The position numbers and the translations under genes were made by a program. The notes under the pieces are model-generated. The model was given only the letters and a program-made list of their open reading frames with translations. It had not been told where the DNA came from and did not search any database. A stretch of 64,000 nucleotides of DNA from Erwinia sp. E602 (GTDB lineage: Bacteria; Pseudomonadota; Gammaproteobacteria; Enterobacterales; Enterobacteriaceae), in the NCBI RefSeq assembly GCF_018141005.1, contig NZ_CP046581.1:1-64000 (forward strand), in the 5' to 3' direction. Of the stretch, positions 11,641 to 25,861 are shown piece by piece (position 1 is the first letter of the stretch; every line of letters starts with the position of its first letter).

Positions 11641-13266
11641 TTACTCAGGTGCAATCAGATAGCGTGCCACGGGCATCTGTTCTGCCTGATGAAATGCGGT
11701 TACCCGGTTCTGTATCCGTTGATCGTTCATCGTGTAGCGTTCAAGCTGGCGCAGATGCTCCATCCACGAGCCCACCTCAAATGTTTCAACGAAAATGCCG
11801 GGTTGCAGAATATCCTCGTACACCGCCCAGTTGATGGCGCCGCCGCGACGTCGTACGCGCCTTAAGTCCTGCATACAGACCATAAATGCCGGCGCATCCT
11901 GCTGTTGCAGCAGGTACTCGTAGCTTACCCGCACCGGCCCGCGATCGTGGTGCACATCCAGTACCGGAACCGGCTCGTTGCTATCACTGAGGTCCAGATT
12001 GAGGTCAGGATCTTTATCCAGACGCCAGCGCAATACGGTAAAGCAGCCCAGCACCATCCCCAGCGTTGCCACACACAGCGATAGCGGAATGCCGTAACTG
12101 GACGCGAGCTGCCCCCAGATGGCGCTACCCACGGTCATTGAGCCAAAGAACACGGTGAGGTAAACCGCCAGCGCCCGCGCCTTGACCCACTTTGCGGCGC
12201 TACGCTGCGCGCCCAGATTCAGGGTTGAGAGCACGGCAATCCATGCGAAGCCGGTGAAGAACTCAAACACGTTGAGCAGCCAGACATTGCGTATAAACGC
12301 CAGCGCCAGCAGGGTCGCGGCAAACATCAGGCTGGCCAGCACCATCAGCTGGTCGGCGTTAAAGCGTTTGCGCAGCCGGGGCAGGAGCACCGCGCCACAA
12401 ATCGCCCCGACGCCGATAAACGCCAGCAGAATGCCGTAGCCGCCTGGCCCCATCCCCAGTTCGCGGCGTGCAACCAGCGGTAGAAGCGCCCAGCCGGCGC
12501 TGCCGAACACGAAGAATGCCACGGTACGAACCAGTACGTTGCGCAGCACCGGTGCGGCGTGTACGTAGCGCAGACCGGCGCGCACGGCGGGAAAAAAGTG
12601 CTCCGGCGGCAGGCGCTGAATACCGGGCGACTCTTTCCAGCGGTACAGCACCCAGGCGACGCCAACGACAGAGAGGGCGTTAAGCAGAAACACCATCCAT
12701 GGCCCGGCGAACGACAGGATCAGCCCGCCGAGTGCCGGACCGATGGCGCGGCTGATATTGATACCCAGCGAGTTAAGCGCAATCGCGGGTCCTAACTCCT
12801 CCTTTTTCACCAGGTCCGACACAATGGCCTGAAACGGCGGTGAACTCATTGCCGCACCGGCGCTCATCAGGAAGGCCGCAATCAGCAGTACCAGCGGCGT
12901 GACGTGCCCGGTAAAGGACAACAGGGTCAGCCCGGCGGCGGCGATGAACACCCACAGCTGTGAAAACAGCAGATACTTACGCCGGTCGATAATATCGGCC
13001 AGCACGCCAGAGGGCAGGGCGAACAGGAACATCGGCAGGCTGCTGGCTGCCTGCACCAGCGCCACGCTGAGGGGATCGGCGCTGAGCGTCAGCATGGTCC
13101 AGTTGATCCCTACGTCGTTCATCCACGAGCCAATATTGGACACCACCGTGGCAATCCACAGCATGCGAAACACCGGCTGACGCAAAGGATCCAGAGATGA
13201 TGCCGCCGCCGGGGACGGCAGGGTCTCATTCTGCGTAATGTTGTTGATATCGTTAGCTTGCGCCAT
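11641..13266 (-). CDS. MFS transporter (MFS_3/EntS-like) with C-terminal cytoplasmic domain
   Basis: About 541 residues from the ATG preceded by AGGAAAG. There are twelve predicted membrane helices, with the A-like motif GVLADIIDRRKYL between helices 2 and 3 as in the EntS/MFS_3 family of exporters. After the last helix comes a soluble domain of about 130 residues (from LDVHHDRGPVRVSYEYLL) that resembles the monooxygenase/Dabb-like tail seen in this family. A longer frame upstream lacks a ribosome binding site and reads as non-protein. It lies 150 bases past the amidohydrolase gene in the same direction, so co-transcription is likely. The natural substrate is unknown; export of the amidohydrolase product or substrate is a guess from context. 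Confidence 0.88.
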   Translation of the reverse strand: MAQANDINNITQNETLPSPAAASSLDPLRQPVFRMLWIATVVSNIGSWMNDVGINWTMLTLSADPLSVALVQAASSLPMFLFALPSGVLADIIDRRKYLLFSQLWVFIAAAGLTLLSFTGHVTPLVLLIAAFLMSAGAAMSSPPFQAIVSDLVKKEELGPAIALNSLGINISRAIGPALGGLILSFAGPWMVFLLNALSVVGVAWVLYRWKESPGIQRLPPEHFFPAVRAGLRYVHAAPVLRNVLVRTVAFFVFGSAGWALLPLVARRELGMGPGGYGILLAFIGVGAICGAVLLPRLRKRFNADQLMVLASLMFAATLLALAFIRNVWLLNVFEFFTGFAWIAVLSTLNLGAQRSAAKWVKARALAVYLTVFFGSMTVGSAIWGQLASSYGIPLSLCVATLGMVLGCFTVLRWRLDKDPDLNLDLSDSNEPVPVLDVHHDRGPVRVSYEYLLQQQDAPAFMVCMQDLRRVRRRGGAINWAVYEDILQPGIFVETFEVGSWMEHLRQLERYTMNDQRIQNRVTAFHQAEQMPVARYLIAPE

Positions 13267-13415
13267 AACTACTTTCCTGGGTTTACCAAAGCGGATGCGC
13301 CACCGGCCCGTCGAGGACCGGCAGGCAGGCCGACTGGGTCTGTTCGCCGGGCAGGCGCAGACAGAACAGCCCGGCATTACTGCGGGGCTGCTGAGAGAAC
13401 AGACGCGTTTTAACG

Positions 13416-15293
13416 TCAGAATGCAAAACAGCTGCAGCCGAGCGCGCCCCAGAAGGCGTTATCTTCGGATACCGGCAGGTTGGCGCCGCGAGCCACGTCA
13501 TGTGAGTGGCTGTGCACGCCGCACGGACCGCTGCACTGGTGAGGCATCTGCTGCAGACCAACGCGGGTGTTCGCAGAAGGGGGGGCGCTGCGGTAGTGGC
13601 CCGGCACCTTCACCACCGGCGACCATTCTGGCAGCACAGGAATTGACGGCGGCGCTTCAGAGGTGAAAGAACCCGCAGCGTAGACGATGTTCCCGTCCAC
13701 CAGGGTCAGCACCGATTCAATACCCTTAATTTCTTCTTCCGGCACGCTGAAGTAATCCTTGCTCAGTACCACGACGTCCGCCAGCTGACCGGCTTTAATC
13801 TGTCCTTTCTTACCCTGTTCGCTGGAGAACCAGGCGCTGCCTTGCGTCCACAGCATCAGCGCCGTATCGCGATCCAGACGGGCGTTGACGTCATACATCT
13901 GCATCCCGCCTACGGTGCGGCCGGACACCAGCCAGTAGAGCGCGGTCCACGGGTTGTAGCTGGCCACGCGGGTGGCGTCAGTCCCCAGCCCGACCGGCAC
14001 GCCGGTCTCCAGCATGCGGGCCACCGGCGGCGTGTGGCGGGTTGCTTCGATGCCGTAGCGCTCGGCGAAGTATTCGCCCTGGAAGGCCATACGGTGCTGG
14101 ACCGCGATGCCGCCGCCTAACTCCTTGATGCGATCGATATTGCGCTGGGTAACGGTTTCAGCGTGATCGAAGAACCAGTGCAGGCCGTTAAACGGAATGT
14201 CGCGGTTAACCTTTTCAAACACGTCGAGCATACGGCTGATTGATTCGTCGTAGGTGGCGTGCAGGCGGAAAGGCCAACGGTGTTCAACCAGGTGGCGGAC
14301 GACGCGCTCAAGTTCATCTTCCATGCCCGGTGCCAGGTCGGGACGCGGTTCCAGGAAGTCTTCGAAATCGGCCGCCGAGAAGACCAGCATTTCCCCCGCG
14401 CCGTTGTGGCGGAAGTAGTCGGTGCCCTGGCCCGGAGTGAGCAGGTCGGTCCATTTTTCAAAATCTTCCAGCTCGTGCCCCGGACGCTGGGTAAACAGGT
14501 TGTAGGCGATACGGATCGTCAACTGCTTCTTCTCATGCAGCTCGGCAATCACCTGATAATCTTCCGGGTAGTTCTGGAAGCCGCCGCCGGCATCAATGGC
14601 GCTGGTGATGCCCAGACGGTTTAACTCGCGCATGAACTGGCGGGTAGAGTTCACCTGTTGCTCCAGCGGCAGTTTCGGTCCTTTCGCCAGCGTGGCGTAC
14701 AGGATCATGGCGTTGGGACGGGCGATCAGCATGCCGGTCGGGTTGCCGTTGCCGTCGCGCTGGATCTCACCGCCCGGCGGGTTAGGCGTATCTCTGGTAT
14801 AGCCCACCACTTTCAGTGCGGCACGGTTAAGCAGCGCGCGGTCATACAGGTGCAGTACGAACACCGGCGTGTCCGGCGCCGCTTCGTTGATCTCATCCAG
14901 CGTGGGCATACGCCGCTCGGCAAACTGGAATTCGTTCCAGCCGCCCACCACGCGCACCCACTGTGGCGAAGGGGTGCGCAGCGCCTGATTTTTCAGCATG
15001 CGTAGCGCATCCGCGACGGAGGGAACGCCTTCCCAGCGCAGCTCCAGGTTGTAGTTCAGACCGCCACGGATTAAGTGCAGGTGTGAGTCATTCAGGCCCG
15101 GTACGACGGTATGGCCCTTAAGATCGAGGACGTTGGTTCCCTCACAATGGTACTGCATAACTTCCGCCAGGCTGCCCACGGCCTGAAATTTACCGTCGCG
15201 AATGGCCACGGCATCGGCCACCGGGTTTTCGCGATCGACAGTGTGAAATCGTCCATTAGTGAGTATGACGTCGGCTTTACCAAGGGTAACCAT
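13416..15293 (-). CDS. Amidohydrolase family 3 (YtcJ-like) metal-dependent hydrolase
   Basis: A 625-residue TIM-barrel amidohydrolase. The N-terminal beta-sandwich part leads to the metal motif DSHLHLIRGG. Further ligands are suggested by LHATYDES, HWFFDHAETV and the late GTDATRV aspartate. The family hydrolyses amide or ester bonds; formamides and N-acyl compounds are typical of YtcJ-like enzymes. TGGAGA five bases upstream supports the start. The last 50 residues are odd: a Cys/His-rich tail including HQCSGPCGVHSHSHD and CSCF, which could bind an extra metal. It is divergent from an isochorismatase-fold hydrolase across a repeat-rich control region, and a transporter follows it. The substrate is unknown. 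Confidence 0.87.
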   Translation of the reverse strand: MVTLGKADVILTNGRFHTVDRENPVADAVAIRDGKFQAVGSLAEVMQYHCEGTNVLDLKGHTVVPGLNDSHLHLIRGGLNYNLELRWEGVPSVADALRMLKNQALRTPSPQWVRVVGGWNEFQFAERRMPTLDEINEAAPDTPVFVLHLYDRALLNRAALKVVGYTRDTPNPPGGEIQRDGNGNPTGMLIARPNAMILYATLAKGPKLPLEQQVNSTRQFMRELNRLGITSAIDAGGGFQNYPEDYQVIAELHEKKQLTIRIAYNLFTQRPGHELEDFEKWTDLLTPGQGTDYFRHNGAGEMLVFSAADFEDFLEPRPDLAPGMEDELERVVRHLVEHRWPFRLHATYDESISRMLDVFEKVNRDIPFNGLHWFFDHAETVTQRNIDRIKELGGGIAVQHRMAFQGEYFAERYGIEATRHTPPVARMLETGVPVGLGTDATRVASYNPWTALYWLVSGRTVGGMQMYDVNARLDRDTALMLWTQGSAWFSSEQGKKGQIKAGQLADVVVLSKDYFSVPEEEIKGIESVLTLVDGNIVYAAGSFTSEAPPSIPVLPEWSPVVKVPGHYRSAPPSANTRVGLQQMPHQCSGPCGVHSHSHDVARGANLPVSEDNAFWGALGCSCFAF

Positions 15294-15412
15294 ATGATCT
15301 CCAGAATTGAATGGTCTGATGCGCTCATTACGACCGCAGCCAGTGAAATGCTCTGCTGTAAAAGCAGGATAGTGGGATGACGGGATTATGATCAGGAGGC
15401 CGGTAGCAGGTC

Positions 15413-15461
15413 TAGTTATACAAAAGGATAGGTATACCTTCGTATAGTTATACCTATAGAT
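15413..15461. promoter_or_regulatory. Repeat-rich operator region between amidohydrolase and hydrolase
   Basis: Contains GTTATACAAAAGGATAGG followed by TATAC (15415-15437). This 23-base element recurs, with one substitution and one missing base, upstream of the FixJ-type regulator. A second partial copy GTTATACCTATAGAT occupies 15447-15461. ATAGGTATA and TATACCTAT form a 9-bp inverted repeat (15428-15436 and 15449-15457), and TAGTTATAC is repeated directly 32 bases apart. This is a strong candidate for binding by a dimeric regulator controlling both divergent genes. Confidence 0.7.
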
Positions 15462-15626
15462 AATAGTTTGAAAAATAAAAGGCTCCTACACTGCGCAGCA
15501 ACAGTGACCCACCCCTACGGATAGCAGCGAGCAGGAATGCGCTACCCGCTAACGGCGGCTGCTGCAAATTGATGCCATTCACTTTTTTTAATCAACTTAG
15601 CCACTCTAACCTCAATGGGTAATGCA

Positions 15627-16319
15627 ATGACCAATCGCAAGCTTGAAGTACTGACGCCGCAGAACTGCCAGATTATCTTTATCGATCAGCAGCCACAGAT
15701 GGCGTTTGGTGTGCAGTCAATCGATCGCCAGGTGCTGAAAAATAACGTGGTGGCGCTGGCTAAAGCGGCCAAAGTCTTCAATATTCCGACCGTACTGACT
15801 ACCGTTGAGACCGAAAGTTTTTCCGGTAATACCTTCCCGGAGCTGCTGGACGTGTTCCCGGGGCAGGACATCCTTGAGCGCACCTCAATGAACTCATGGG
15901 ATGACCAGAAGGTACGTGACGCACTGGCGGCGAACGGCAAGAAGAAAATTGTTGTTTCTGGTCTGTGGACTGAAGTGTGCAACAACACGTTCGCACTGTG
16001 CGCAATGCTGGAAGGTGATTACGAAATTTACATGGTGGCTGATGCTTCAGGCGGCACCACCAAAGAAGCGCACGACTATGCGATGCAGCGCATGATTCAG
16101 GCTGGCGTTATTCCTGTCACCTGGCAGCAGGTGATGCTGGAGTGGCAGCGTGACTGGGCCCACAAAGAGACGTACAACGCGGTGATGGACATTGCGAAAG
16201 AGCACTCAGGTGCTTACGGTATCGGCGTGGATTACGCCTACACCATGGTACACAAGGCGCCTTCACGTCAGAAGAGCGAACACCGTACCCTGGCTCCGGT
16301 TCCGGCACCGGTGCGTTAA
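15627..16319 (+). CDS. Isochorismatase-fold cysteine hydrolase (YcaC-like)
   Basis: About 230 residues of the isochorismatase-like hydrolase superfamily. The catalytic Asp20 is in IIFIDQQPQ and the nucleophile Cys118 in GLWTEVCNNTFAL. The same Cys position is found in E. coli YcaC as I recall it. The C-terminal part carries the helical region that builds the YcaC octamer. Members hydrolyse amides or isochorismate; the substrate here is unknown. I prefer the ATG four codons into the longest frame. It heads a same-strand series with two XapX genes, a response regulator and a giant sensor kinase, so it may be the output enzyme of that regulatory unit. Confidence 0.85.
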   Translation: MTNRKLEVLTPQNCQIIFIDQQPQMAFGVQSIDRQVLKNNVVALAKAAKVFNIPTVLTTVETESFSGNTFPELLDVFPGQDILERTSMNSWDDQKVRDALAANGKKKIVVSGLWTEVCNNTFALCAMLEGDYEIYMVADASGGTTKEAHDYAMQRMIQAGVIPVTWQQVMLEWQRDWAHKETYNAVMDIAKEHSGAYGIGVDYAYTMVHKAPSRQKSEHRTLAPVPAPVR

Positions 16320-16379
16320 ACCGTTCAACGGGCTGGCTCTTTGCGGAGCCGGCCCGCTTTTTCAGATAAAGGAGGGCCT

Positions 16380-16631
16380 GTGAGTCCTTTATTACTCTCT
16401 CTGGGCGCAGGCACGCTGATCGGCATCATCTATGCGCTGCTCAGGGTTCAGTCTCCGGCTCCGCCAGCGGTGGCACTGATCGGACTGCTGGGAATGGTTA
16501 TCGGCAGCACCCTGGGAGGGAAACTGCTTCACACTTCCCCATCAGCCAGGGTGACCACCAGCGAGCAACACCCGATCACCGCCGATCACCGGCCGGCATC
16601 GTTACCCTTACTGGCTAAGCAGGCGGGATAA
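16380..16631 (+). CDS. XapX-domain small membrane protein, copy 1
   Basis: An 83-residue protein starting at GTG, with AAAGGAGGG placed four bases upstream. It has two short hydrophobic segments (SPLLLSLGAGTLIGIIYALL and AVALIGLLGMVIGSTLGG) joined by VQSPAPPA, which is the XapX (DUF1427) signature. The C-terminal 30 residues are polar. The function of XapX proteins is unknown; they recur next to isochorismatase-like hydrolases and amidohydrolases. It is followed after two bases by a second XapX gene. Confidence 0.8.
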   Translation: MSPLLLSLGAGTLIGIIYALLRVQSPAPPAVALIGLLGMVIGSTLGGKLLHTSPSARVTTSEQHPITADHRPASLPLLAKQAG

Positions 16632-16633
16632 AC

Positions 16634-16918
16634 ATGTTGAAAACCTATTCTGTTTCACTGATCGTTGGCGTACTGGCGGGCCTGATCTATGCCATCCTTG
16701 ACGTAAATTCCCCGGCCCCTCCGATCGTTGCACTGGTGGGGCTGCTGGGCATGCAGACTGGCGAGCACATTATCCCGTTAGCCAGACGACTGATTCAACG
16801 CCAGCCGGTCAGTCTTCACTGGTTTCGCCATGAGTATCACCATAAAATCGGGGATAATTCTTCGTCCTCAGAGGACAAATCCTCCCAGGGAAGCGCCCGA
16901 TCCGGGCCTGAGTTTTAA
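16634..16918 (+). CDS. XapX-domain small membrane protein, copy 2
   Basis: A 94-residue paralogue of the preceding gene: VSLIVGVLAGLIYAILDVNSPAPPIVALVGLLGMQTGE repeats the XapX pattern with the NSPAPP turn. The C-terminal tail is different and polar. It begins two bases after the first copy ends, so the two are surely co-transcribed and may form a hetero-oligomer. The function is unknown. Confidence 0.82.
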   Translation: MLKTYSVSLIVGVLAGLIYAILDVNSPAPPIVALVGLLGMQTGEHIIPLARRLIQRQPVSLHWFRHEYHHKIGDNSSSSEDKSSQGSARSGPEF

Positions 16919-16932
16919 CTAAGGAAAACAGC

Positions 16933-17319
16933 ATGCAGCTGTCGCAGCGCATTATCGTCGTCGATGATGAACGTTCTGTCCGCAGTGGTCTGACCAACCT
17001 GCTTCAGTCAGAAGGTTTTCTGTCAGAGGCGTTTGATTCGGCAGAATCTCTTCTTTCTGATGAAGCAGCGATGGCGAATGCCGCGCTTTTTATCATTGAT
17101 GTGCAGTTGAAAGGCATGAATGGTTTTGAGCTTTTCATCAATCTTACCCGGCGGCTGAAAAACCCGCCGGGTATTATCATTTCCGGCAATGGAGATGAGA
17201 GTATGCACAGGTATGCGATCGCGCTTGGCGCGATTGCGTTTTTGCCTAAGCCCATAGAGATTGACACCTTGTTTGAACATATCCTCCATGCGTTTTCCTG
17301 CCAGGCTGCACGTCAGTGA
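16933..17319 (+). CDS. Receiver-only response regulator
   Basis: A 128-residue CheY-like protein with no output domain. Asp11/Asp12 form the acidic pocket, Asp56 in LFIIDVQLKG is the phospho-acceptor, Ser follows in IIISGNGD, and Lys is in FLPKPIE. Its stop codon overlaps the GTG start of the giant kinase by four bases (GTGA), so the two are translationally coupled and very probably partners. It may be a phosphate sink or an intermediate between the histidine kinase and the FixJ-type regulator at the far end. Confidence 0.92.
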   Translation: MQLSQRIIVVDDERSVRSGLTNLLQSEGFLSEAFDSAESLLSDEAAMANAALFIIDVQLKGMNGFELFINLTRRLKNPPGIIISGNGDESMHRYAIALGAIAFLPKPIEIDTLFEHILHAFSCQAARQ

Positions 17320-20300
17320 GCCTCCCTGTGCGGCCGTCTGTCGAAACAGAACATGATGAAATCCTGTTATCAGAGGACACTACCTTTAGCCGGCTGGTGC
17401 AGGATGACACGATTGACTGGTTTCTGTGTCGTCATGCCATTAGCGGTGAATCCTTTATTCTTGCCACCGCAGGCAATGATGAACTGCTCTCCCAGATCAC
17501 CCAGCGGCTGAAAAACGAATATGCGCTTCGCGGCAGATTATCGGAGAGCTGGGCGCTAAAACCGCGGCAACACACCCATTATCAAGGGCGATATGCGCTG
17601 ATCTACCCGCCGTTTAACTATCGCACTCTGGCAGATATTTTGTGCATGCCCCCCGGAGATATCACTGATTTTCTCACCCGTGCCGCAACGCTTTGCGGCA
17701 CGCTGAGCATGATGCATCAGCAGGGGCTGGTACACGGTGATATCAAGCCTGCCAACTTTTTTTATACGGACGATCGCACGGTGCTGCTGGGCGGCTTCGG
17801 GCTGTCATCTGTTAATGACGATTTACTGCAGAAGCCACCGTTGCAGGTCGCCGGCGGTACGCTGGCCTACATGTCTCCGGAGCATACCTCCCGTTCAGCA
17901 CATCCGGTCAGCCGCGTCAGCGATCTCTACAGTCTGGGCATTGTGCTGTACGAGTTACTGACCGGCAGGTTGCCCTACGGCAATATTGACGGCGGGCACG
18001 CGGAGTGGGTGCATCACCACATTGCCTCAGAGGCCCTGCCGCCGCATGCGTTGCGCAAAGAGATTCCGGTGGTTCTCTCGGCCATCATTCTGAAACTGCT
18101 GGCAAAATCTCCGGAAAACCGCTATCAGACGGCCGAGGCGGTGCTGGCCGATCTGAGGCAATGCGCGTCCACGTTAATGCCGGACGGGCTTATTGAGCCC
18201 TTTACGCCGGGGCTGCAGGACCCGCCGAACAGCCATTTTTCACTGAATACGCTCTGTACCGACCATCCACAGGCAGCGGAGATACTGGCGGCTTTTGATG
18301 AGGTAAGCCGCAGCGGCAAGCACAGCCTGGTGGTTGTCAGTGGCGCTCAGGGATCGGGCAAGTCATCACTTATCGCATCGTCCCTCAGACGACTGCGTAA
18401 TAACAAAGCGCTGCTCACCGTGGTGAAGGCCGATAAGCATTCGCCGGTGATGCCGTATACGGTGTTTACCGCCGCCTTCAAAGTGCTGGTACTCCACGTG
18501 CTGGGCCTTCCCCATGCAGAAATGACGCAGTGGAAGGCGCACATTACCCGCCTGCTTGGCGAACACGCCGGGCTGGCGGTCAATCTGGTACCGGAGTTGG
18601 GCATACTGCTTAACAAAAAGGTGACGGTTCAGTCCCATGCGCACACGCTTGATGCAAAGAAACGGCTGATGCTGGTTGCCGGTAACCTGGTTAAGGCGTT
18701 CACCGCGCCCGGGCGGCCTCTGGTTATTTTTATCGATGATATGCACTGGACCGATCAGGCCACGCTTCACCTGCTGCAGAATCTGCTCAGTTCCAGTGAA
18801 GATATCCCGCTGCTGCTGGTTATGGCACATCGCGATAGCCTCTCATTGCCTTGCCCTACCATCATCGGCAATCTGCAGCGTATTCGCGCCTGTGCCATGC
18901 GCATTACCGATATCACGCCGGCCCCGCTTTCTGAGACGCATATTGCCGGCTGGCTGGCCGGAATATTTCACACCACTGCGTCGGCCACCCTGGAACTTGC
19001 GCAGGTTATTCACGAGAAAACCGCCGGCAATCCGCTGGCAACCCATGAATTTTTCCGTCAGGCCCTGCGTGATGGGCTGATTAGCCACACCGCGCCGCGC
19101 CGCTGGGCCTGCGATCTGCAGGCGCTTAAAAACAGCCATTTTACGGCCAACGTTGCCGCCAGTGTTTTACTGCATCTCTCATTAATACCGGTGCCGACGC
19201 GTCAGCTACTGGGCAAGCTGGCGTTAGCGGGAAACGCGGGCCAGCTCGAGGTGATTAGCACCATTACCACCCTGCCCGTGGCTGACATTGAGCGGATGCT
19301 GTTACCCGCCGTGAAGGCAAGACTGATCGCGTTAAGCGATCAGGGTTACGCTTTTATGCATGAGAGCATGCATGAGGCGGCACTCGACCTGTTAACAGAT
19401 AAAGAGAAAGATGCTTTTCATTACGCCGCCGCGCTTATTTACAGGCGTAAATCCAGCCTCGATGTGACCAATGTGCTGCTTTTCAGCGCCGCGCATCATC
19501 TGGTTGCCATTAAAGATCGTTCATTGCTGGCTCAGGATATTGAGGGATGCTGCCAGCTGATACTGAAAGCGACCCGGCGTGCAAAAACCACCGGTGACTA
19601 CGTTTCAGCGCTGCGCTACCTGAAAATGGCCCGTTCTCTTCTCCACGACGTGGGAAAGAGCGATACCGGGGAGTTCCTTCTTGAAGAGGCCGAGTGCGAA
19701 TTTCTTAACGGCAATCTTGCTGCCGCACTGACGTTAAGTACCCGGCTTCACTTTTCATCCGGCGAGATGACAACGAAAGCGGAGGCTGCCTGTCTGATCG
19801 CTGAAATCCACATGCGGCAGTCGGACAGTGAACGTGCGCTGGAAACCGCGCTGGAGTGGCTTGCGGTGTTTGGTGTGCAACTGAACCGTCATCCTGGCCC
19901 GGAAGAGTGCGATGCAGCAAGGCTGGTTTTGAAGGAGGATGTGGGTAAAAATCCGTATACCCGGTTCCGTTCACTTCCGCTGGTGGAATGTAAAAATACC
20001 GTAGCCATCATGAATCTGATGGCCAGCGCCAGCACGTTCGCCGCCTTTACCAATCCACGACTGCAATTCATGCTGCTGTGCAGGCTGCTGCACCTGACCA
20101 TGGCCCGTGGACTGAGTGGCGCATCCACGCTCGCGCTCTCATGGTACGGGGTGGTCTGTGGCGATCGGTATGATGAGTACAGCCGTGGTTTTGCCAGCAC
20201 CCTGCTGGCGCGTGAACTGGTTTACAAGCATGACTTTGTGAGCTTTAAAGCGCGTACGCTGCTACCGCTTGACCAGGTCAGCGTGTGGACAATGCCGCTA

Positions 20301-22880
20301 ACCTACGCGATTGAGCGGGCCAGGGCTGCCTTTGACGTTGGGGTTGAAACCGGCGACCGGACCTCTGCCTGCCTGGCGCTGCGGCATATCATTATGAATA
20401 TGCTGGCCCGGGGAGACCATCTTGACGGGGTACACACGTCAGTCTCGCGGGCATTGCTGTTTGTGCAAAAGGCGCAGTATCGCGACGTTGAAGTTATTCT
20501 CGGCATGCAGCTGGACTTCGTCCTGTTCCTGCGTAAGCCACGGGGCCATACGTTCAGCGGCGATAATTTCCTGACGCCGGTGCTGGAGGTGGTGAAACCC
20601 GAAAACGCCGTTGAGCCGATACTCCTGATGCGGTTCTGGTCGCGACTGTACAAAGCGATGGCCCACTTCTTTGCACATGAATATGAAGTGGCAGAGCAGT
20701 TGTTTAAAGACGCGTTACCCTTTGTCGAACACATCCCCGGGCATGTACATATGCTCGATTATCACCTCTACAGCGCGTTGTCCCTGACCATTCCCTTAGA
20801 AACCGGGGCCATGACCGAGGATTTGCGGCAGCGGCTCGGGCACCATTTCGACAGGATTGTGACCTGGTCAAATGAGAACACGAAAACGTTTTCAGATAAG
20901 GAAGCCCTGCTTCGCGCGGAGCTGCTGCGTCTTGAAGGGGAAACGACCGGGGCATCAGAGCAGTTTGAAAAAGCCATTGCGTTGTCACGTGAAGGGCAGT
21001 TTCATCATATCAACGGACTGGCCTGCGAGCTGGCCGCAGGTCTGGCCTACGCCAGGGGCATGTCGTTCGCCGGTGATGCTTACATCAGGGGGGCAATAGC
21101 CGCATGGGACCGTTGGGGGGCAGGGGCCAAAGTTAAGCAGCTGGAAACACGGTATCCGGCACTCGCCTGCCACGCCTCTCAGACTGCGCTCAGCACCCTG
21201 TCCTTTGAACCCAGCGCCGCGATCGGCGACCTGCAGAGCATGGTAACCGTGATGCGCGCCCTGACCGAAGAGATCAACCTGGATCGGCTGATACACATCC
21301 TGATGATCATGCTGGTGGAACGCGCCGGTGCCCAGCACTGCATGTTAATCAGGCTGACCGACGATAATATTCCTGAAATCCAGGCAAGAGCCACCACCAC
21401 CGTTGACGGCATAAAGGTCAGAATTGTCCGCGAATTACCGGTCGCGACCGATCTGCCGTTGTCGGTCCTCTCTGCGGTGATCCGCACCGGGCAGGAGATC
21501 CGCACCGGCAAACCTGAGGTGTTCAGCCCGTTCAGTCAGGATAATTATCTGGTCGCCTCGGGGGCAGCGGTGATGTGCGTGCCGATGTACCGGCAGGCTC
21601 AGATGGTTGGGGTACTTTACCTGGAAAATCGGCTGATGCCCGATATGTTTACCGCCGAACACTCGCGGATTGTTTCCATGCTGGGCGCACAGGCGGCGGT
21701 CTCACTGGAGACGGCCCGACTGTATGCCGAACTGGTCGAGGAGAACAATCAGCGCCGTAAAATCGAAAAGAAACTGCTGTCCAGCCAGACGTCGCTGATG
21801 CTGGGGGAAAAAATCAGTCATACCGGCTCCTGGCACTGGCATGTGGAACCCGACGTGCAATACATCTCTGATGAATATAAACGGATTATGGGCCTTCCGG
21901 ATGAACAGACCACCACCTCGATGGCTGAATTCCAGCGTCGTGTTCACCCGGATGATATTCTTTGCCTGCGGGAGTTAATTGAAACCAGCGTGATGAAGGG
22001 GACCGTCATGCAGGCTGAGTTCCGTATTATCCGCGATAATGGCGAATGTCGTTATATTAAAGGCATTGGTGAGCCAAATGATAACTGGCCAGAGGTGGCT
22101 GAATACTTTGGCACGCTGACGGATATCACGGCACAGCGTGAATCAGAGAACGCTGTCAGGATCGCTCAGGTGGAGCTGGCTCGCGTGGCGCGTGCATCGA
22201 CCGTTGGCCAGCTTACCTCTTCAATCGCCCATGAAATTAACCAGCCGCTGATGTCTATCGTGGCTAATGCCGGTGCCAGCCAGCGCTGGCTGAAACGCGA
22301 TCCCGCTAATCTGGAGAATGCCTGCAACAGCCTTGATGAGATCATCAGTGAAGGCCGACGCGCCGGCAATATCATCCGCGGGCTTGAGGCGCTTACCCGT
22401 AAACAGGTCGTTGAGTTTGCTTCGGCAAGAATGCACCTGATTACGCGGGATATATTAAGCCTGTCCCGCCTGGAGCTGGAACGCAAACTCATCTCGCTGG
22501 AGCTGGACCTGTCGGCGGAAAATGACGCTATTTTTTGTGAAAACGTCCAGATACAGCAGGTTTTGCTTAACCTGGTCATTAATGCCATTGAAGCGATGGC
22601 GGAAAACGCCGGCGTACGACATTTACGTATCGCTTCATCGCATCCGGTCCGGGATGTGATTCGTATCGACGTGGCTGATAACGGTAGCGGGCTGCCCGGA
22701 GAGATGCCGGAAAAGATTTTCGAGTCGTTTTACACCACCAAAGCGGAAGGTATGGGCATGGGGCTGACCATCAGCAAAGAGATCATCAAACGTCATGGTG
22801 GCGTTTTGCACGCCGAAAATCGCCCTGAGGGAGGAAGTTTGTTCTGGTTCACCCTCCCGGTTGAGGGAAAAATGGAGTGA
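17316..22880 (+). CDS. Giant hybrid sensor: kinase-like, AAA ATPase, GAF, PAS and histidine kinase
   Basis: An 1854-residue cytoplasmic signalling protein. Its domains in order are:
- a Ser/Thr-kinase-like domain (1-290);
- an AAA/STAND ATPase with Walker A GAQGSGKSS at 343-351 and Walker B LVIFIDDMHW near 470;
- a long TPR-like helical region (about 650-1300);
- GAF (about 1320-1470);
- PAS (about 1486-1608);
- HisKA with phospho-acceptor His1639 in SIAHEINQPL;
- HATPase with N-box NLVINAIEAM and DNGSGLPG.
The Ser/Thr domain keeps HGDIKPAN, but DFG reads GGFG and no VAIK-type lysine is seen (FILATAG at that strand). It is probably a pseudokinase scaffold. It starts at GTG overlapping the receiver gene. 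The stimulus is unknown. Confidence 0.93.
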   Translation: MSLPVRPSVETEHDEILLSEDTTFSRLVQDDTIDWFLCRHAISGESFILATAGNDELLSQITQRLKNEYALRGRLSESWALKPRQHTHYQGRYALIYPPFNYRTLADILCMPPGDITDFLTRAATLCGTLSMMHQQGLVHGDIKPANFFYTDDRTVLLGGFGLSSVNDDLLQKPPLQVAGGTLAYMSPEHTSRSAHPVSRVSDLYSLGIVLYELLTGRLPYGNIDGGHAEWVHHHIASEALPPHALRKEIPVVLSAIILKLLAKSPENRYQTAEAVLADLRQCASTLMPDGLIEPFTPGLQDPPNSHFSLNTLCTDHPQAAEILAAFDEVSRSGKHSLVVVSGAQGSGKSSLIASSLRRLRNNKALLTVVKADKHSPVMPYTVFTAAFKVLVLHVLGLPHAEMTQWKAHITRLLGEHAGLAVNLVPELGILLNKKVTVQSHAHTLDAKKRLMLVAGNLVKAFTAPGRPLVIFIDDMHWTDQATLHLLQNLLSSSEDIPLLLVMAHRDSLSLPCPTIIGNLQRIRACAMRITDITPAPLSETHIAGWLAGIFHTTASATLELAQVIHEKTAGNPLATHEFFRQALRDGLISHTAPRRWACDLQALKNSHFTANVAASVLLHLSLIPVPTRQLLGKLALAGNAGQLEVISTITTLPVADIERMLLPAVKARLIALSDQGYAFMHESMHEAALDLLTDKEKDAFHYAAALIYRRKSSLDVTNVLLFSAAHHLVAIKDRSLLAQDIEGCCQLILKATRRAKTTGDYVSALRYLKMARSLLHDVGKSDTGEFLLEEAECEFLNGNLAAALTLSTRLHFSSGEMTTKAEAACLIAEIHMRQSDSERALETALEWLAVFGVQLNRHPGPEECDAARLVLKEDVGKNPYTRFRSLPLVECKNTVAIMNLMASASTFAAFTNPRLQFMLLCRLLHLTMARGLSGASTLALSWYGVVCGDRYDEYSRGFASTLLARELVYKHDFVSFKARTLLPLDQVSVWTMPLTYAIERARAAFDVGVETGDRTSACLALRHIIMNMLARGDHLDGVHTSVSRALLFVQKAQYRDVEVILGMQLDFVLFLRKPRGHTFSGDNFLTPVLEVVKPENAVEPILLMRFWSRLYKAMAHFFAHEYEVAEQLFKDALPFVEHIPGHVHMLDYHLYSALSLTIPLETGAMTEDLRQRLGHHFDRIVTWSNENTKTFSDKEALLRAELLRLEGETTGASEQFEKAIALSREGQFHHINGLACELAAGLAYARGMSFAGDAYIRGAIAAWDRWGAGAKVKQLETRYPALACHASQTALSTLSFEPSAAIGDLQSMVTVMRALTEEINLDRLIHILMIMLVERAGAQHCMLIRLTDDNIPEIQARATTTVDGIKVRIVRELPVATDLPLSVLSAVIRTGQEIRTGKPEVFSPFSQDNYLVASGAAVMCVPMYRQAQMVGVLYLENRLMPDMFTAEHSRIVSMLGAQAAVSLETARLYAELVEENNQRRKIEKKLLSSQTSLMLGEKISHTGSWHWHVEPDVQYISDEYKRIMGLPDEQTTTSMAEFQRRVHPDDILCLRELIETSVMKGTVMQAEFRIIRDNGECRYIKGIGEPNDNWPEVAEYFGTLTDITAQRESENAVRIAQVELARVARASTVGQLTSSIAHEINQPLMSIVANAGASQRWLKRDPANLENACNSLDEIISEGRRAGNIIRGLEALTRKQVVEFASARMHLITRDILSLSRLELERKLISLELDLSAENDAIFCENVQIQQVLLNLVINAIEAMAENAGVRHLRIASSHPVRDVIRIDVADNGSGLPGEMPEKIFESFYTTKAEGMGMGLTISKEIIKRHGGVLHAENRPEGGSLFWFTLPVEGKME

Positions 22881-22885
22881 GAGGA

Positions 22886-22909
22886 GCTCCCGCACGGGGT
22901 GGCGGGAGC
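22886..22909. terminator. Hairpin between convergent kinase and FixJ-type genes
   Basis: GCTCCCGC and GCGGGAGC form an 8-bp stem with an 8-base loop, six bases past the kinase stop. There is no T-run, so it is a plausible bidirectional transcript-end structure rather than a certain terminator. Confidence 0.5.
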
Positions 22910-22932
22910 ATTCACTGACGGTGGAAGGGGGC

Positions 22933-23571
22933 TCAGTAAATTCCACTACAGGCGGCCGCATCATCATCAGGCAGCCCTAGCTTTTCCGCTATTCTGACCA
23001 GCTCGGGCGCTGAGCGGACACCCATTTTTTCCATTACCCTGCGCTTATGCACTTTCGCGGTGATTTCACTGATCCCCATTTCGGCGGCTATCTGCTTATT
23101 GAGCAATCCCCGGATAACCAGCAGCATAAGTTCCTTCTCGCGCGGCGTGAGTGAACCGTAGCGCGTTTTCACCCGACGTTTTTCCTCAGAAAGGGCGACG
23201 CTTTTTTCAGAAAGTTTTAGCGCATCCGCGACGACATTCAGTAAATCATCGGGCATCACGGGTTTGGTTAAGAATTCAAATGCCCCCGCCTTCATCGCCC
23301 TGACCGTGATCGGGATGGTGCCAAAGCCGGTCAGAAAAATGGTGGGTATGGAGTAACCGCGTTCGGTCAGGTGATGGCTGACGTCAAAACCGTCTGACCC
23401 CGGCATGTTGAGGTCTACAATCAGGCAGCAGGGTGTACTGTAATCCGTCTGGCTAAGGAATTCGGCTGGCGAGGTGAAGCTTGAAACGGCATAACCTGCG
23501 GAACTGAGGAGGTTATCCAGTGAGTTGATGACAGACTGATCGTCGTCAACGATATAAATTTTTTTATCCAT
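22933..23571 (-). CDS. FixJ/NarL-type response regulator with LuxR DNA-binding domain
   Basis: A 212-residue regulator. The receiver domain has Asp9-Asp11, phospho-acceptor Asp53 in LIVDLNMPG, Thr in IFLTGFG and Lys in FLTKPVMPDD, a FixJ-like pattern. The LuxR-type helix-turn-helix follows at about residues 140-200 (SLTPREKELMLLVIRGLLNKQIAAEMGIS, with the sequence continuing ITAKVHKRRVMEKMG). It converges on the giant histidine kinase and is its likely DNA-binding output. A tandem 15-bp repeat about 300 bases upstream shares sequence with the hydrolase control region, which makes this protein the first candidate to bind that element. The ribosome binding site is weak. Confidence 0.93.
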   Translation of the reverse strand: MDKKIYIVDDDQSVINSLDNLLSSAGYAVSSFTSPAEFLSQTDYSTPCCLIVDLNMPGSDGFDVSHHLTERGYSIPTIFLTGFGTIPITVRAMKAGAFEFLTKPVMPDDLLNVVADALKLSEKSVALSEEKRRVKTRYGSLTPREKELMLLVIRGLLNKQIAAEMGISEITAKVHKRRVMEKMGVRSAPELVRIAEKLGLPDDDAAACSGIY

Positions 23572-23855
23572 AGAGACGCTTTCTGACTCTCAACGCTTTC
23601 TTCATGAACGTCAATATAACCTGATGCGATGGGTTTTAAAATATAAACTTCACAGGGCACCGGGATTGCAACGACGGGATTATTCCTGATGTGCCGTGCG
23701 TCATTTATTTACAGCCGCTTTGCGATGGTTCAGCATAGATTTTCATCAGTCAGTTTTAACCTTTAAAAGTCTGTAATTATTACGGTTGATGTTTAGCCGG
23801 CCTGTTCGTTATCACGCCTCGGCGAGCTGCATCAGGCACAGGAAAATATGCAATG
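23572..23855. other. Upstream region of the FixJ-type regulator
   Basis: About 280 AT-rich bases before the tandem repeat. I see no gene and no clear -10/-35 pair that decides a promoter. Confidence 0.4.
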
Positions 23856-23885
23856 ATCTCTTTGTATACTATCCCTTTGTATAAC
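23856..23885. promoter_or_regulatory. Tandem 15-bp repeat, shared operator copy
   Basis: Two head-to-tail 15-mers, ATCTCTTTGTATACT and ATCCCTTTGTATAAC, adjoin without a gap. The reverse complement of 23864-23885, GTTATACAAAGGGATAG then TATAC, matches the element at 15415-15437 except for one substitution and one missing base. It lies between the FixJ-type gene (minus) and the AraC gene (plus). Confidence 0.7.
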
Positions 23886-24025
23886 ATACACGTCGATTAA
23901 ACTGAGCCATAATGGCCGTATAAGAGAAACCTGTCAGCCTCACCCGAACCTGTTGATGCGCACGCCTGCTGACCAGCGTAGTCCTGTTGAGATTGAAATG
24001 AAAACGCATTTAGCCGGAAGAGAAG

Positions 24026-24487
24026 ATGAAATCAGCACGAAATAAAATCACTGATGCTGTGATTGAGGGTATTCTTCCCTGGATTGATAAAAATCTTTCT
24101 GATGAGTCGATAAGAGTCAGAACGGTAACAGAACGCAGCGGTTACGGCCACTGGCACTTTCAGCGGTTGTTTCGTCAGGGAACCGGTATTAATCTTGCTG
24201 CTTATATCCGGCTCAGACGTATTGCAAGAGCTGCACATCTGATTGCTTTTACGAATAAAGGGATGCTTGAAATCGCCGTTGAGAATGGCTTCTCATGTCA
24301 GCAAAATTTCACCCGCACCTTCAAGTCCTATTTTGCCATCACGCCGACTCAGTTCCGCAGGAAATATGCAAATCGCGCAGAAGCATTCAGGATATTAACC
24401 GAAGAACTTTACAATCATCACGAGCTCGCCTCCTCTGTAAAACTGAGCTCGGCCGTAAACTTGACGTTTACGCCGCGACAGCAGTAA
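24026..24487 (+). CDS. AraC-family regulator of MarA/SoxS size
   Basis: A 153-residue protein that is mostly an AraC DNA-binding domain. It has two helix-turn-helix motifs, the first around RTVTERSGYGHWHFQRLFRQ and the second IAVENGFSCQQNFTRTFK, followed by FAITPTQFRRKY. About 35 extra C-terminal residues have no clear fold. Like MarA, SoxS, RamA and Rob it lacks a separate ligand domain, so its own level is the likely control. A GGAAGAG ribosome binding site supports the start. The tandem repeat 140 bases upstream suggests it belongs to the neighbouring signalling circuit. Its targets are unknown. Confidence 0.9.
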   Translation: MKSARNKITDAVIEGILPWIDKNLSDESIRVRTVTERSGYGHWHFQRLFRQGTGINLAAYIRLRRIARAAHLIAFTNKGMLEIAVENGFSCQQNFTRTFKSYFAITPTQFRRKYANRAEAFRILTEELYNHHELASSVKLSSAVNLTFTPRQQ

Positions 24488-24652: not shown

Positions 24653-25861
24653 ATGCATGATATCGTCATTGTTGAGCCGGCATTTTTCACCCAGTTTCAC
24701 TGTGTGGGCAGCGCCTGTCCCGATCATTGCTGTAAAGGCTGGGATATCGAGCTTGATAAGCCGACGGTGAACCGCTACCTGCAGAGTGATGAGATTGAAA
24801 TACGTCACATAGCGCAGGAAAATGTCATCACGACGGAAATAAATGAGGGCAGCTGGGGGAAGATTAAATTACAAAGCAACGGAAACTGCTCTTTCCTCGA
24901 TGAAGACCGCCTGTGTAAAGTCCATAAGTCTCTGGGCGAAAAAGCGCTGAGCGGCACCTGCGCGATCTATCCGCGGCTGTATGGCAGCTTTAAATATGAG
25001 ATCCGCAGTAACCTGACCCTGTCCTGTCCGGAAGCCGCCAGGCTGCTGTTAACCACACCGGGGGCGATGCTCTTCGGCGAAAGGGTCAGGCAAAGCCCCG
25101 AGCCGCTGGATGCACCGGATATCAGCCAGGAGGACCGGCTGATCGGTCTGATGTGTACGCATATTATGGTCGGTTGCGGGTCAGACATCGAAGAGGGGTT
25201 TTACGGCATCACCATGCTGCTGCTTTATCGCGATAAGCTAGCCGGGGACGCTGACCTGCAGGAAAAAATGCTGCGTTTTTTCGAGGATATCCAGACGGCG
25301 CTGCAAAACGGCACGGTAAAAAAAGAAATGGCCGAGCTGCACCCCGATCATCAGCTGCAGTCCGCGCTGCTGTTACGTTTGCAAAGCTATCTGAGCACCA
25401 AAAATGAAGGGCGCGGCGGACAACGTTTACAGCGCTATTATCAGAACCTGACTGATTTAACCCAGGGTGTTACGCAATCCACCGAGGTGATGACGCCAGC
25501 ACGGCAGCTGAATACTATCTGGCGGGAGAAGGCGCTGCCGTGGCTACAGGCTCGCCCCCATCTGCTCAGTAATTATATTCAGTATCGACTCTATGAGGAT
25601 CGCTTCCCGTCGAAAAAGGGCAGGGAACCCTTAACCCATCTTCTGCTGCTGGTGTCGGAATGGCTCCTGTTAAAATGGCTGATTGCCGCTTCCGTTGAAC
25701 TTAACCCCGAATTCAGCGAAGAGGAGGTGATTACTATCGTTTACAGCTATCACAGCATCACTAAGCATGACAAATACGCTGATGATAAACTGCTGGCAGA
25801 GATCGAACAGATCGACTTCACCGATAAATTTTCACTGATCTATCTGCTGACTGACGGATAA
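24653..25861 (+). CDS. fliB: Flagellin lysine-N-methylase FliB
   Basis: A 402-residue protein matching FliB, which methylates surface lysines of flagellin. The diagnostic N-terminal cysteine cluster is intact: Cys17, Cys22, Cys26 and Cys27 in CVGSACPDHCCKGW. Further Cys residues follow in CSFL, CKVH, CAIYPR and CPEAAR; these are thought to bind an iron-sulphur cluster. The C-terminal half is helical. The gene stands alone, with no flagellin or fli genes in view, although a sigma-28-controlled chemoreceptor is present 21 kb away. A GAAGAG lies rather far (11 bases) from the ATG. Confidence 0.88.
   Translation: MHDIVIVEPAFFTQFHCVGSACPDHCCKGWDIELDKPTVNRYLQSDEIEIRHIAQENVITTEINEGSWGKIKLQSNGNCSFLDEDRLCKVHKSLGEKALSGTCAIYPRLYGSFKYEIRSNLTLSCPEAARLLLTTPGAMLFGERVRQSPEPLDAPDISQEDRLIGLMCTHIMVGCGSDIEEGFYGITMLLLYRDKLAGDADLQEKMLRFFEDIQTALQNGTVKKEMAELHPDHQLQSALLLRLQSYLSTKNEGRGGQRLQRYYQNLTDLTQGVTQSTEVMTPARQLNTIWREKALPWLQARPHLLSNYIQYRLYEDRFPSKKGREPLTHLLLLVSEWLLLKWLIAASVELNPEFSEEEVITIVYSYHSITKHDKYADDKLLAEIEQIDFTDKFSLIYLLTDG

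Follow-up and report, generated by a model that had tools for sequence, protein, structure and literature searches.

Response regulators of the StyR/TodT/TmoT kind are the closest described relatives of the system analyzed here. As set out in part of PMC2442086, phosphorylated StyR (StyR-P) activates from a site at about -40, STY2, and joins in repression once further sites fill. Part of PMC5874301 lists three residues of StyR that may contact its operator (Lys175, Val176 and His179), together with a consensus, ATAAAC-N4-GTTTAT, that the StyR-like proteins TodT, TutB and TmoT may recognize. The locus compared with them below lies in a 64,000-nucleotide stretch of Erwinia sp. E602 (NZ_CP046581.1, positions 1 to 64,000; the window), where a repeated element occupies two control regions, one between the genes for an amidohydrolase and an isochorismatase-fold hydrolase and the other upstream of a gene for an AraC-family regulator (Table 1). 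The element is real and has been conserved in evolution as a docking site. Very probably, the protein it serves is the FixJ/StyR-type response regulator whose gene lies between its two copies, which would activate both divergent promoters as well as the AraC gene.

The original prediction placed one copy of the element, GTTATACAAAAGGATAGGTATAC, at 15415-15437 on the forward strand and a second, GTTATACAAAGGGATAGTATAC, at 23864-23885 on the reverse strand, one substitution and one missing base apart, and both the coordinates and the differences were borne out. Its claim that two such matches are unlikely to arise by chance was likewise upheld by shuffling and by a scan of the whole genome. A search of the window for GTTATACAAANGGATAG with up to 3 mismatches returned 2 matches, each at 0 mismatches, whereas 100 shuffles of the window gave a mean of 0.14 and only 1 of them reached 2 matches. 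When the two intergenic regions were compared, their best common 17-mer carried 1 mismatch, whereas dinucleotide-shuffled versions (300 pairs) gave at best 2 mismatches in 3 pairs and more in the other 297. The genome does not carry the motif in scattered copies: over all 5.17 Mb, matches to TATACAAARGGATAG at up to 2 mismatches were limited to the two sites, and the reversed-pattern control gave 7 matches. A genome scan with a fixed 16-bp-period pattern (up to 3 mismatches) found the first site only, with 2 matches for its control, because the period of the AraC-side site is 15 bp.

The repeating unit is a 14-bp pseudo-palindrome, TATAC-N4-G(G/T)ATA, with a period of 16 bp. Three units span 15417-15462 in the amidohydrolase/isochorismatase gap, of which the original prediction had recognized the first and the third (as a diverged copy at 15447-15461) and overlooked the middle one. 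The tandem 15-bp repeat predicted before the AraC gene was found there as two units 15 bp apart, spanning 23855-23883. That period is peculiar to this genome's copy, since the AraC arrays listed for relatives have a period of 16 bp. For comparison, 78 distinct gaps were assembled and reduced to 75 distinct arrays once identical arrays with their flanks had been merged; 41 of these bear the label of the pattern scan, some having been found by both routes, and 34 were first met outside it (4 with one unit, 4 with two, 20 with three and 6 with four). Together the 75 arrays hold 235 units, most often three per array (45 arrays) or four (19), less often two (5), one (4) or five (2), and successive units are 16 bp apart in 159 of 160 spacings and 15 bp apart in the remaining one. 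The left half-site is TATAC in 229 of the 235 units. The right half-site varies with position: first units have GGATA (54) or GTATA (17), middle units mainly GTATA, and the last unit AGATA in 71 of the 75 arrays.

This anatomy resembles that of StyR, TodT and TmoT in several respects. The regulator has a receiver and a GerE/LuxR-type helix-turn-helix (HTH), with PF00072 and PF00196 both above the Pfam cut-off, and its closest solved structure is 1yio (E 4e-48), followed by FixJ (5xso, 5.8e-36). We take 1yio and 1zn2, titled 'response regulatory protein' in the table of matches, to be StyR. Over 53 homologues without stops, conservation is higher in the HTH (0.85) than in the receiver (0.70), the recognition helix is largely invariant, and Lys173 and Val174, which align with Lys175 and Val176 of StyR, are the same in 53/53. 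Common to both are also a dyad with a 4-bp spacer and an inner AC-N4-GT and, as far as the parts of PMC5874301 and PMC2442086 drawn on here go, several sites per promoter with an activating site, here a putative one, near -40. However, the present operator does not match ATAAAC-N4-GTTTAT, one base in each half-site being different (TATAC for TAAAC), and because of this the regulator, although it would work like StyR or TodT, is not classed as one of them. Further differences are the contiguous array of one to five units with a 16-bp period serving two divergent promoters, the other enzymes, and the other kind of kinase at the locus. The likeness to rhizobial FixJ consists in membership of the same subfamily and in its rank as second-best solved homologue. 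In contrast to rhizobial FixJ, no nitrogen-fixation genes are found among the neighbours, and the NCBIfam FixJ model (NF006900), though the best model for the regulator, scores 169.6 bits against an equivalog cut-off of 255.

The distribution of the element was examined first within the genus. An orthologue of the FixJ-type regulator (E <= 1e-40) occurs in 10 of 37 genomes, and the isochorismatase orthologue (at least 92%) is confined to the same ten, all of which carry three units in the orthologous gap. Alignment places the units in a conserved block of about 55 bp whose surroundings are much less conserved. With up to 1 mismatch, a genus scan gave 20 matches, 11 of them on-locus (the window, G008 and G023 each contribute both sites) and 9 off-locus. 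A short, AT-rich sequence of this kind might be thought a chance resemblance or a dispersed repetitive element, and a one-mismatch match does occur in 8 of the 27 genus genomes that lack the regulator; but the reversed control also gave 9 matches, equal to the off-locus count, and on-locus conservation extends across many genera. The comparative data refute this explanation, to which we attach next to no probability. Because regulator and enzymes occupy the same 10 of 37 genomes, co-occurrence within the genus cannot separate the two, and the alpha/beta-hydrolase locus and the unlinked cases described below were therefore used instead.

In the family, the regulator (E <= 1e-50) was found in 42 of 392 genomes, representing 23 of 154 sampled genera, and the two-unit pattern (up to 1 mismatch) in 36 genomes, with 2 for the reversed control. 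Both occur together in 33 genomes, always in the amidohydrolase-isochorismatase gap (Fisher p ~3e-36, a value that is uncorrected for relatedness and overstates independence, since the genomes are related). Presence at orthologous loci, complete in the ten regulator-bearing genomes of the genus, thus extends to 41 of the 42 regulator-bearing family genomes, which retain at least one unit. Nine genomes have the regulator without the two-unit pattern, and 8 of them still carry one or more units: one each in G157, G176, G259 and G270, two (one of them degenerate) in G269 and G336, one near either end of a 1.8-kb gap in G337, and one about 80 kb from the regulator in G056. The pattern without the regulator was seen in G049, G064 and G302. 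We take the match in G049, a 1.1-Mb genome, as chance; G064 is 49% complete, its genes are matched in pieces, and it has a partial regulator at 4e-32. A contrast of the HTH between homologues with and without sites was also tried and failed because the site-less candidate, G056, has a similar HTH and its distant unit. Among 369 genomes searched across the class, one further regulator homologue was identified (46%, G591), with no site pattern at up to 1 mismatch in its 3.6 kb.

Among the DNA-binding genes of the window, only that for the FixJ-type protein was seen to share the distribution of the sites, which are kept with it where the AraC gene is absent nearby, where the kinase lies elsewhere or was not found, where the enzymes are replaced, and where the regulator is unlinked. 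For example, Chimaeribacter (G248) has the regulator, the kinase and the receiver, with a two-unit array and an amidohydrolase-type promoter facing an alpha/beta hydrolase; the 19 kb read contain no match to the amidohydrolase or to the isochorismatase. Pantoea agglomerans HJS002 and P. brenneri have the regulator and the array at the locus without the kinase; a 76-77% kinase is encoded elsewhere (L312:8935-15091 and L313:8641-14865, respectively), with one unit before the receiver gene, and in L313 this unit comes with an isochorismatase-type promoter. No kinase was detected at E <= 1e-100 in G270, where the regulator and one unit remain. The distribution thus supports the earlier reading of the FixJ-type protein as the probable common regulator of both sites.

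The same comparisons bear on the AraC protein, which could itself bind both arrays and autoregulate. About 140 bp separate its gene from the second array, and in relatives AraC homologues stand beside arrays; a well-matching AraC gene is present at the locus in 4 of the 10 genus genomes (the window, G008, G023 and G027), with units before each. However, the six remaining genomes all have an intact amidohydrolase array. In five of them (G001, G007, G014, G018 and G022) the 5 kb or more past the regulator contain no AraC match, and in G026 the one match is of 39%, 4.5 kb off and lacking tandem units; these absences refer to the neighborhood of the locus, and AraC-type paralogues may be present elsewhere in those genomes. 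G022 does have an AraC homologue with three units, placed on a different contig from the enzymes (L138). Moreover, the units are symmetric, unlike the marbox of AraC relatives, which is asymmetric. On the strength of the genomes with intact arrays and no good AraC match near the locus, and of the unit symmetry, we rejected the AraC protein as the binder, a role we hold to be highly improbable, and it is better read as a target.

A third candidate is some other, unlinked regulator, for instance of the TetR type. The pattern TATMC-N4-GKATA-N2-TATMC-N4-GKATA was scanned against 84,980 species and gave 119 stretches, of which the 80 listed are described here. Judged by the genus in the title, 53 of the 80 are from Enterobacterales, and all of these lie either at the amidohydrolase/isochorismatase genes (48) or at an AraC homologue (5). 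None of the other 27 adjoins an amidohydrolase, isochorismatase or AraC homologue; three of them (L102, L137 and L141) match the kinase or the regulator weakly (27-31%). A single case in an unrelated proteobacterial metagenome-assembled genome (L141:3999-4876) has a two-unit array 125 bp from a receiver and LuxR-HTH gene. Sixteen of the 80 listed stretches (L098, L110, L111, L126, L130, L131, L135, L137, L139, L149, L162, L163, L165, L168, L171 and L174; 14 titled Elusimicrobiota and 2 untitled bacteria) have the motif TATAC-N4-GTATA-NN-TATAC-N4-GTATA in common, NN being AT in 14 of the 16. Beside it stand seven mutually related proteins, and the one tested matches TetR_N. This motif looks like a TetR autoregulatory operator of convergent sequence. 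Because a similar double palindrome overlaps the promoters of TetR-like genes in Elusimicrobiota, the binder cannot be told from the sequence alone. Yet the sites accompany the FixJ/kinase module even where it stands beside another enzyme, and no other DNA-binding gene of the window was seen to share their distribution, which makes an unlinked binder improbable.

The placement of the arrays relative to the promoters is consistent with activation by the FixJ-type regulator. On the amidohydrolase side, 63 of the 75 arrays have ATTAT, the complement of the -10, beginning 32 bp ahead of the first unit; on the isochorismatase side, TANNNT begins 24 nt past the last unit in 65 of the 75; and in relatives' AraC arrays GATAAT-like hexamers lie 24-25 nt beyond the last unit. 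Read as consensus matches, the -10-like hexamers are separated from the unit by 24-26 nt on the amidohydrolase, isochorismatase and AraC sides. With the usual -10-to-start distance, the outermost units would be centered at about -44 to -46 from the predicted starts. The -35 hexamers are poor on both sides, the nearest unit ends just upstream of the -35 position, and the isochorismatase promoter has no entry among the computed promoter-like sites of the window. Activation is favored because the outer units would sit at about -44 to -46, directly upstream of poor -35 hexamers. An isochorismatase -10 within unit 3 (GATAAT, 15459-15464), for which all units would cover the core promoter, was considered and dropped because the TANNNT 24 nt downstream is kept in so many of the arrays. 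The FixJ-type protein might nonetheless bind the units and repress, or do both depending on occupancy as described for StyR in the part of PMC2442086 cited above, and arrays reaching five units can crowd a promoter. We consider this unlikely, since the position of the nearest unit upstream of the -35, the constant spacing in most arrays and the poor -35 fit activation. What look like insertions interrupt or shift the divergent promoter region at L295:5421-7221 (G337) and in L256 before 2260 (G339).

Several points weigh against activation by the FixJ-type regulator as the general explanation. G339 has the regulator and no unit in the stretch read, which contains the isochorismatase gene with an apparent insertion before it, the amidohydrolase being absent from that stretch. 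Conversely, the complete genome G302 has the amidohydrolase and two units and no FixJ homologue at E 1e-20; the isochorismatase was likewise not found, and we read the array as a remnant after loss of the remaining module genes. No unit was seen ahead of the gene for the regulator itself. In place of His179, the third of the StyR contacts, the regulator has Arg177 (43 of the 53 homologues have Arg and the other 10 Lys); set beside the operator difference, this is suggestive of a joint change of one contact residue and one operator base. As to method, the -35 and -10 assignments are consensus matches, the script that chained the units favors 16-bp steps, and the family search for the regulator scored up to 7 best candidates per genome.

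The kinase gene of the locus encodes a giant protein that can be compared with HstK-type kinases, dual kinases with a Ser/Thr-kinase domain, GAF and histidine-kinase domains. The same kinds of domain are united in the giant kinase, which, unlike the HstK type, also has AAA_16 and PAS. Part of PMC1262709 describes dual protein kinases, HstK itself being named there only among the references. The Ser/Thr-kinase part (residues ~110-290) retains HGDIKPAN and has GFG instead of DFG; in none of 65 rows (the window and relatives) was DFG seen, the alternatives being GFG, RFG, SFG or GFC. Because the DFG aspartate is replaced, this part is probably a pseudokinase, inactive as a kinase. For the AraC protein, the best-matching models are RobA (101 against a cut-off of 380 bits), RamA (90.6 against 180) and SoxS (85.2 against 174), so that MarA/SoxS/Rob/RamA are its nearest described relatives, with scores below their equivalog cut-offs; in contrast to them, the AraC gene here looks like the target of a two-component system.

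Among the neighboring genes, that for the MFS transporter adjoins the amidohydrolase gene in 7 of the 9 relatives within the genus, to the extent that the stretches cover it. A strong terminator-like hairpin (16329-16356) directly follows the isochorismatase gene at its 3' end, so that transcription from the array promoter may reach the receiver and kinase genes only in part. Beside the AraC gene, the protein encoded at 24653-25861 exceeds the cut-off of the model for FliB flagellin lysine-N-methylase.

Table 1. Positions of the probable operator units, putative promoters and genes of the locus, and of genes behind tandem units in single other lineages.
Feature	Position	Strand	Remarks
Operator unit 1, TATACAAAAGGATA	15417..15430	+	Nearest amidohydrolase promoter; aligned in 10/10 genus orthologues
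Operator unit 2, TATACCTTCGTATA	15433..15446	+	Perfect TATAC-N4-GTATA
Operator unit 3, TATACCTATAGATA	15449..15462	+	Nearest isochorismatase promoter
AraC-proximal operator unit, TATACAAAGGGATA (- strand)	23870..23883	-	Genome scan; arrays before AraC homologues in relatives
Second, weaker AraC-side unit, TATACAAAGAGATC	23855..23868	-	Direct reading; 2 mismatches to consensus, 15 bp from first
Putative amidohydrolase promoter	15385..15414	-	-35-like TAGACC 15414-15409, 18 bp, -10 CATAAT 15390-15385; rated promoter-like
Putative isochorismatase promoter	15463..15492	+	Weak -35 region touching unit 3; -10 TACACT 15487-15492
Putative AraC -10, CATAAT	23908..23913	+	Direct reading; 24 nt past proximal unit
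MFS_3 transporter	11641..13377	-	Probably co-transcribed with amidohydrolase
Amidohydro_3 metal-dependent hydrolase	13416..15293	-	Putative target
Isochorismatase-fold, YcaC-like hydrolase	15615..16319	+	Putative target
Single-domain response regulator (receiver only)	16933..17319	+	Domain search
Giant sensor kinase, 1854 residues	17316..22880	+	Ser/Thr-kinase-like, AAA_16, GAF, PAS, HisKA, HATPase; HisKA motif HEIN at 1639
FixJ/StyR-type response regulator (receiver and LuxR-type HTH)	22933..23571	-	Proposed binder of units
Short AraC-family regulator related to Rob/RamA/MarA/SoxS	24026..24487	+	Putative target
Alpha/beta hydrolase behind tandem units	L258:12883-13846		Chimaeribacter
Type I GAPDH behind tandem units	L148:7058 and L270:15791-16867		Mangrovibacter
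Gram-negative porin behind tandem units	L313:17432-18722		P. brenneri
DUF1427 gene behind tandem units	L314:13180-13605		G380

Taken as a whole, the evidence strongly suggests a circuit that would tie the enzymes and regulators together. A signal would be received by the giant kinase, which, judged only from gene linkage, would phosphorylate the FixJ-type regulator. Each TATAC-N4-GKATA unit would be the site of one regulator dimer, as its symmetry and the protein family suggest, and dimers would be stacked every 16 bp, with neighbors on opposite faces of the DNA because 16 bp corresponds to about 1.5 helical turns. The outermost unit, abutting the poor -35, would have the geometry of an activator working beside polymerase. 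The phosphorylated regulator would then turn on genes to either side of the first array, those for the amidohydrolase and the MFS transporter on one side and that for the YcaC-like hydrolase on the opposite one, and from the second array the Rob/RamA-like AraC gene, with chemical detoxification or uptake as the presumed outcome. Our guess from the enzymes, the MFS protein and the Rob/RamA-like regulator is that the trigger is an amide-type natural compound. No description of this locus turned up in the open PMC literature, as judged by title or abstract start, with subscription papers outside the scope.

How the system evolved can be sketched more tentatively. In a proposal whose prospects we put slightly below even, it would be a plug-in module with an altered regulator contact and a matching change of one operator base, its contiguous arrays gaining and losing whole 16-bp units (one to five) between two divergent promoters that stay fixed. 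If this is true, the promoter cassette has been placed before AraC, alpha/beta hydrolase, GAPDH, porin and DUF1427 genes in some lineages, and response strength and regulon membership would evolve through the number of units and the capture of the cassette. The paired differences, TATAC for TAAAC in the operator and Arg or Lys for His at one contact position, make a specificity rule for LuxR-type HTH proteins directly testable, and the natural series of one to five operator copies at similar promoters is useful for studying how operator number sets a response. Two enzymes of unassigned substrate, an uncharacterized giant kinase and a regulator that looked like an orphan are thereby brought into what may be one testable circuit with an exact operator.

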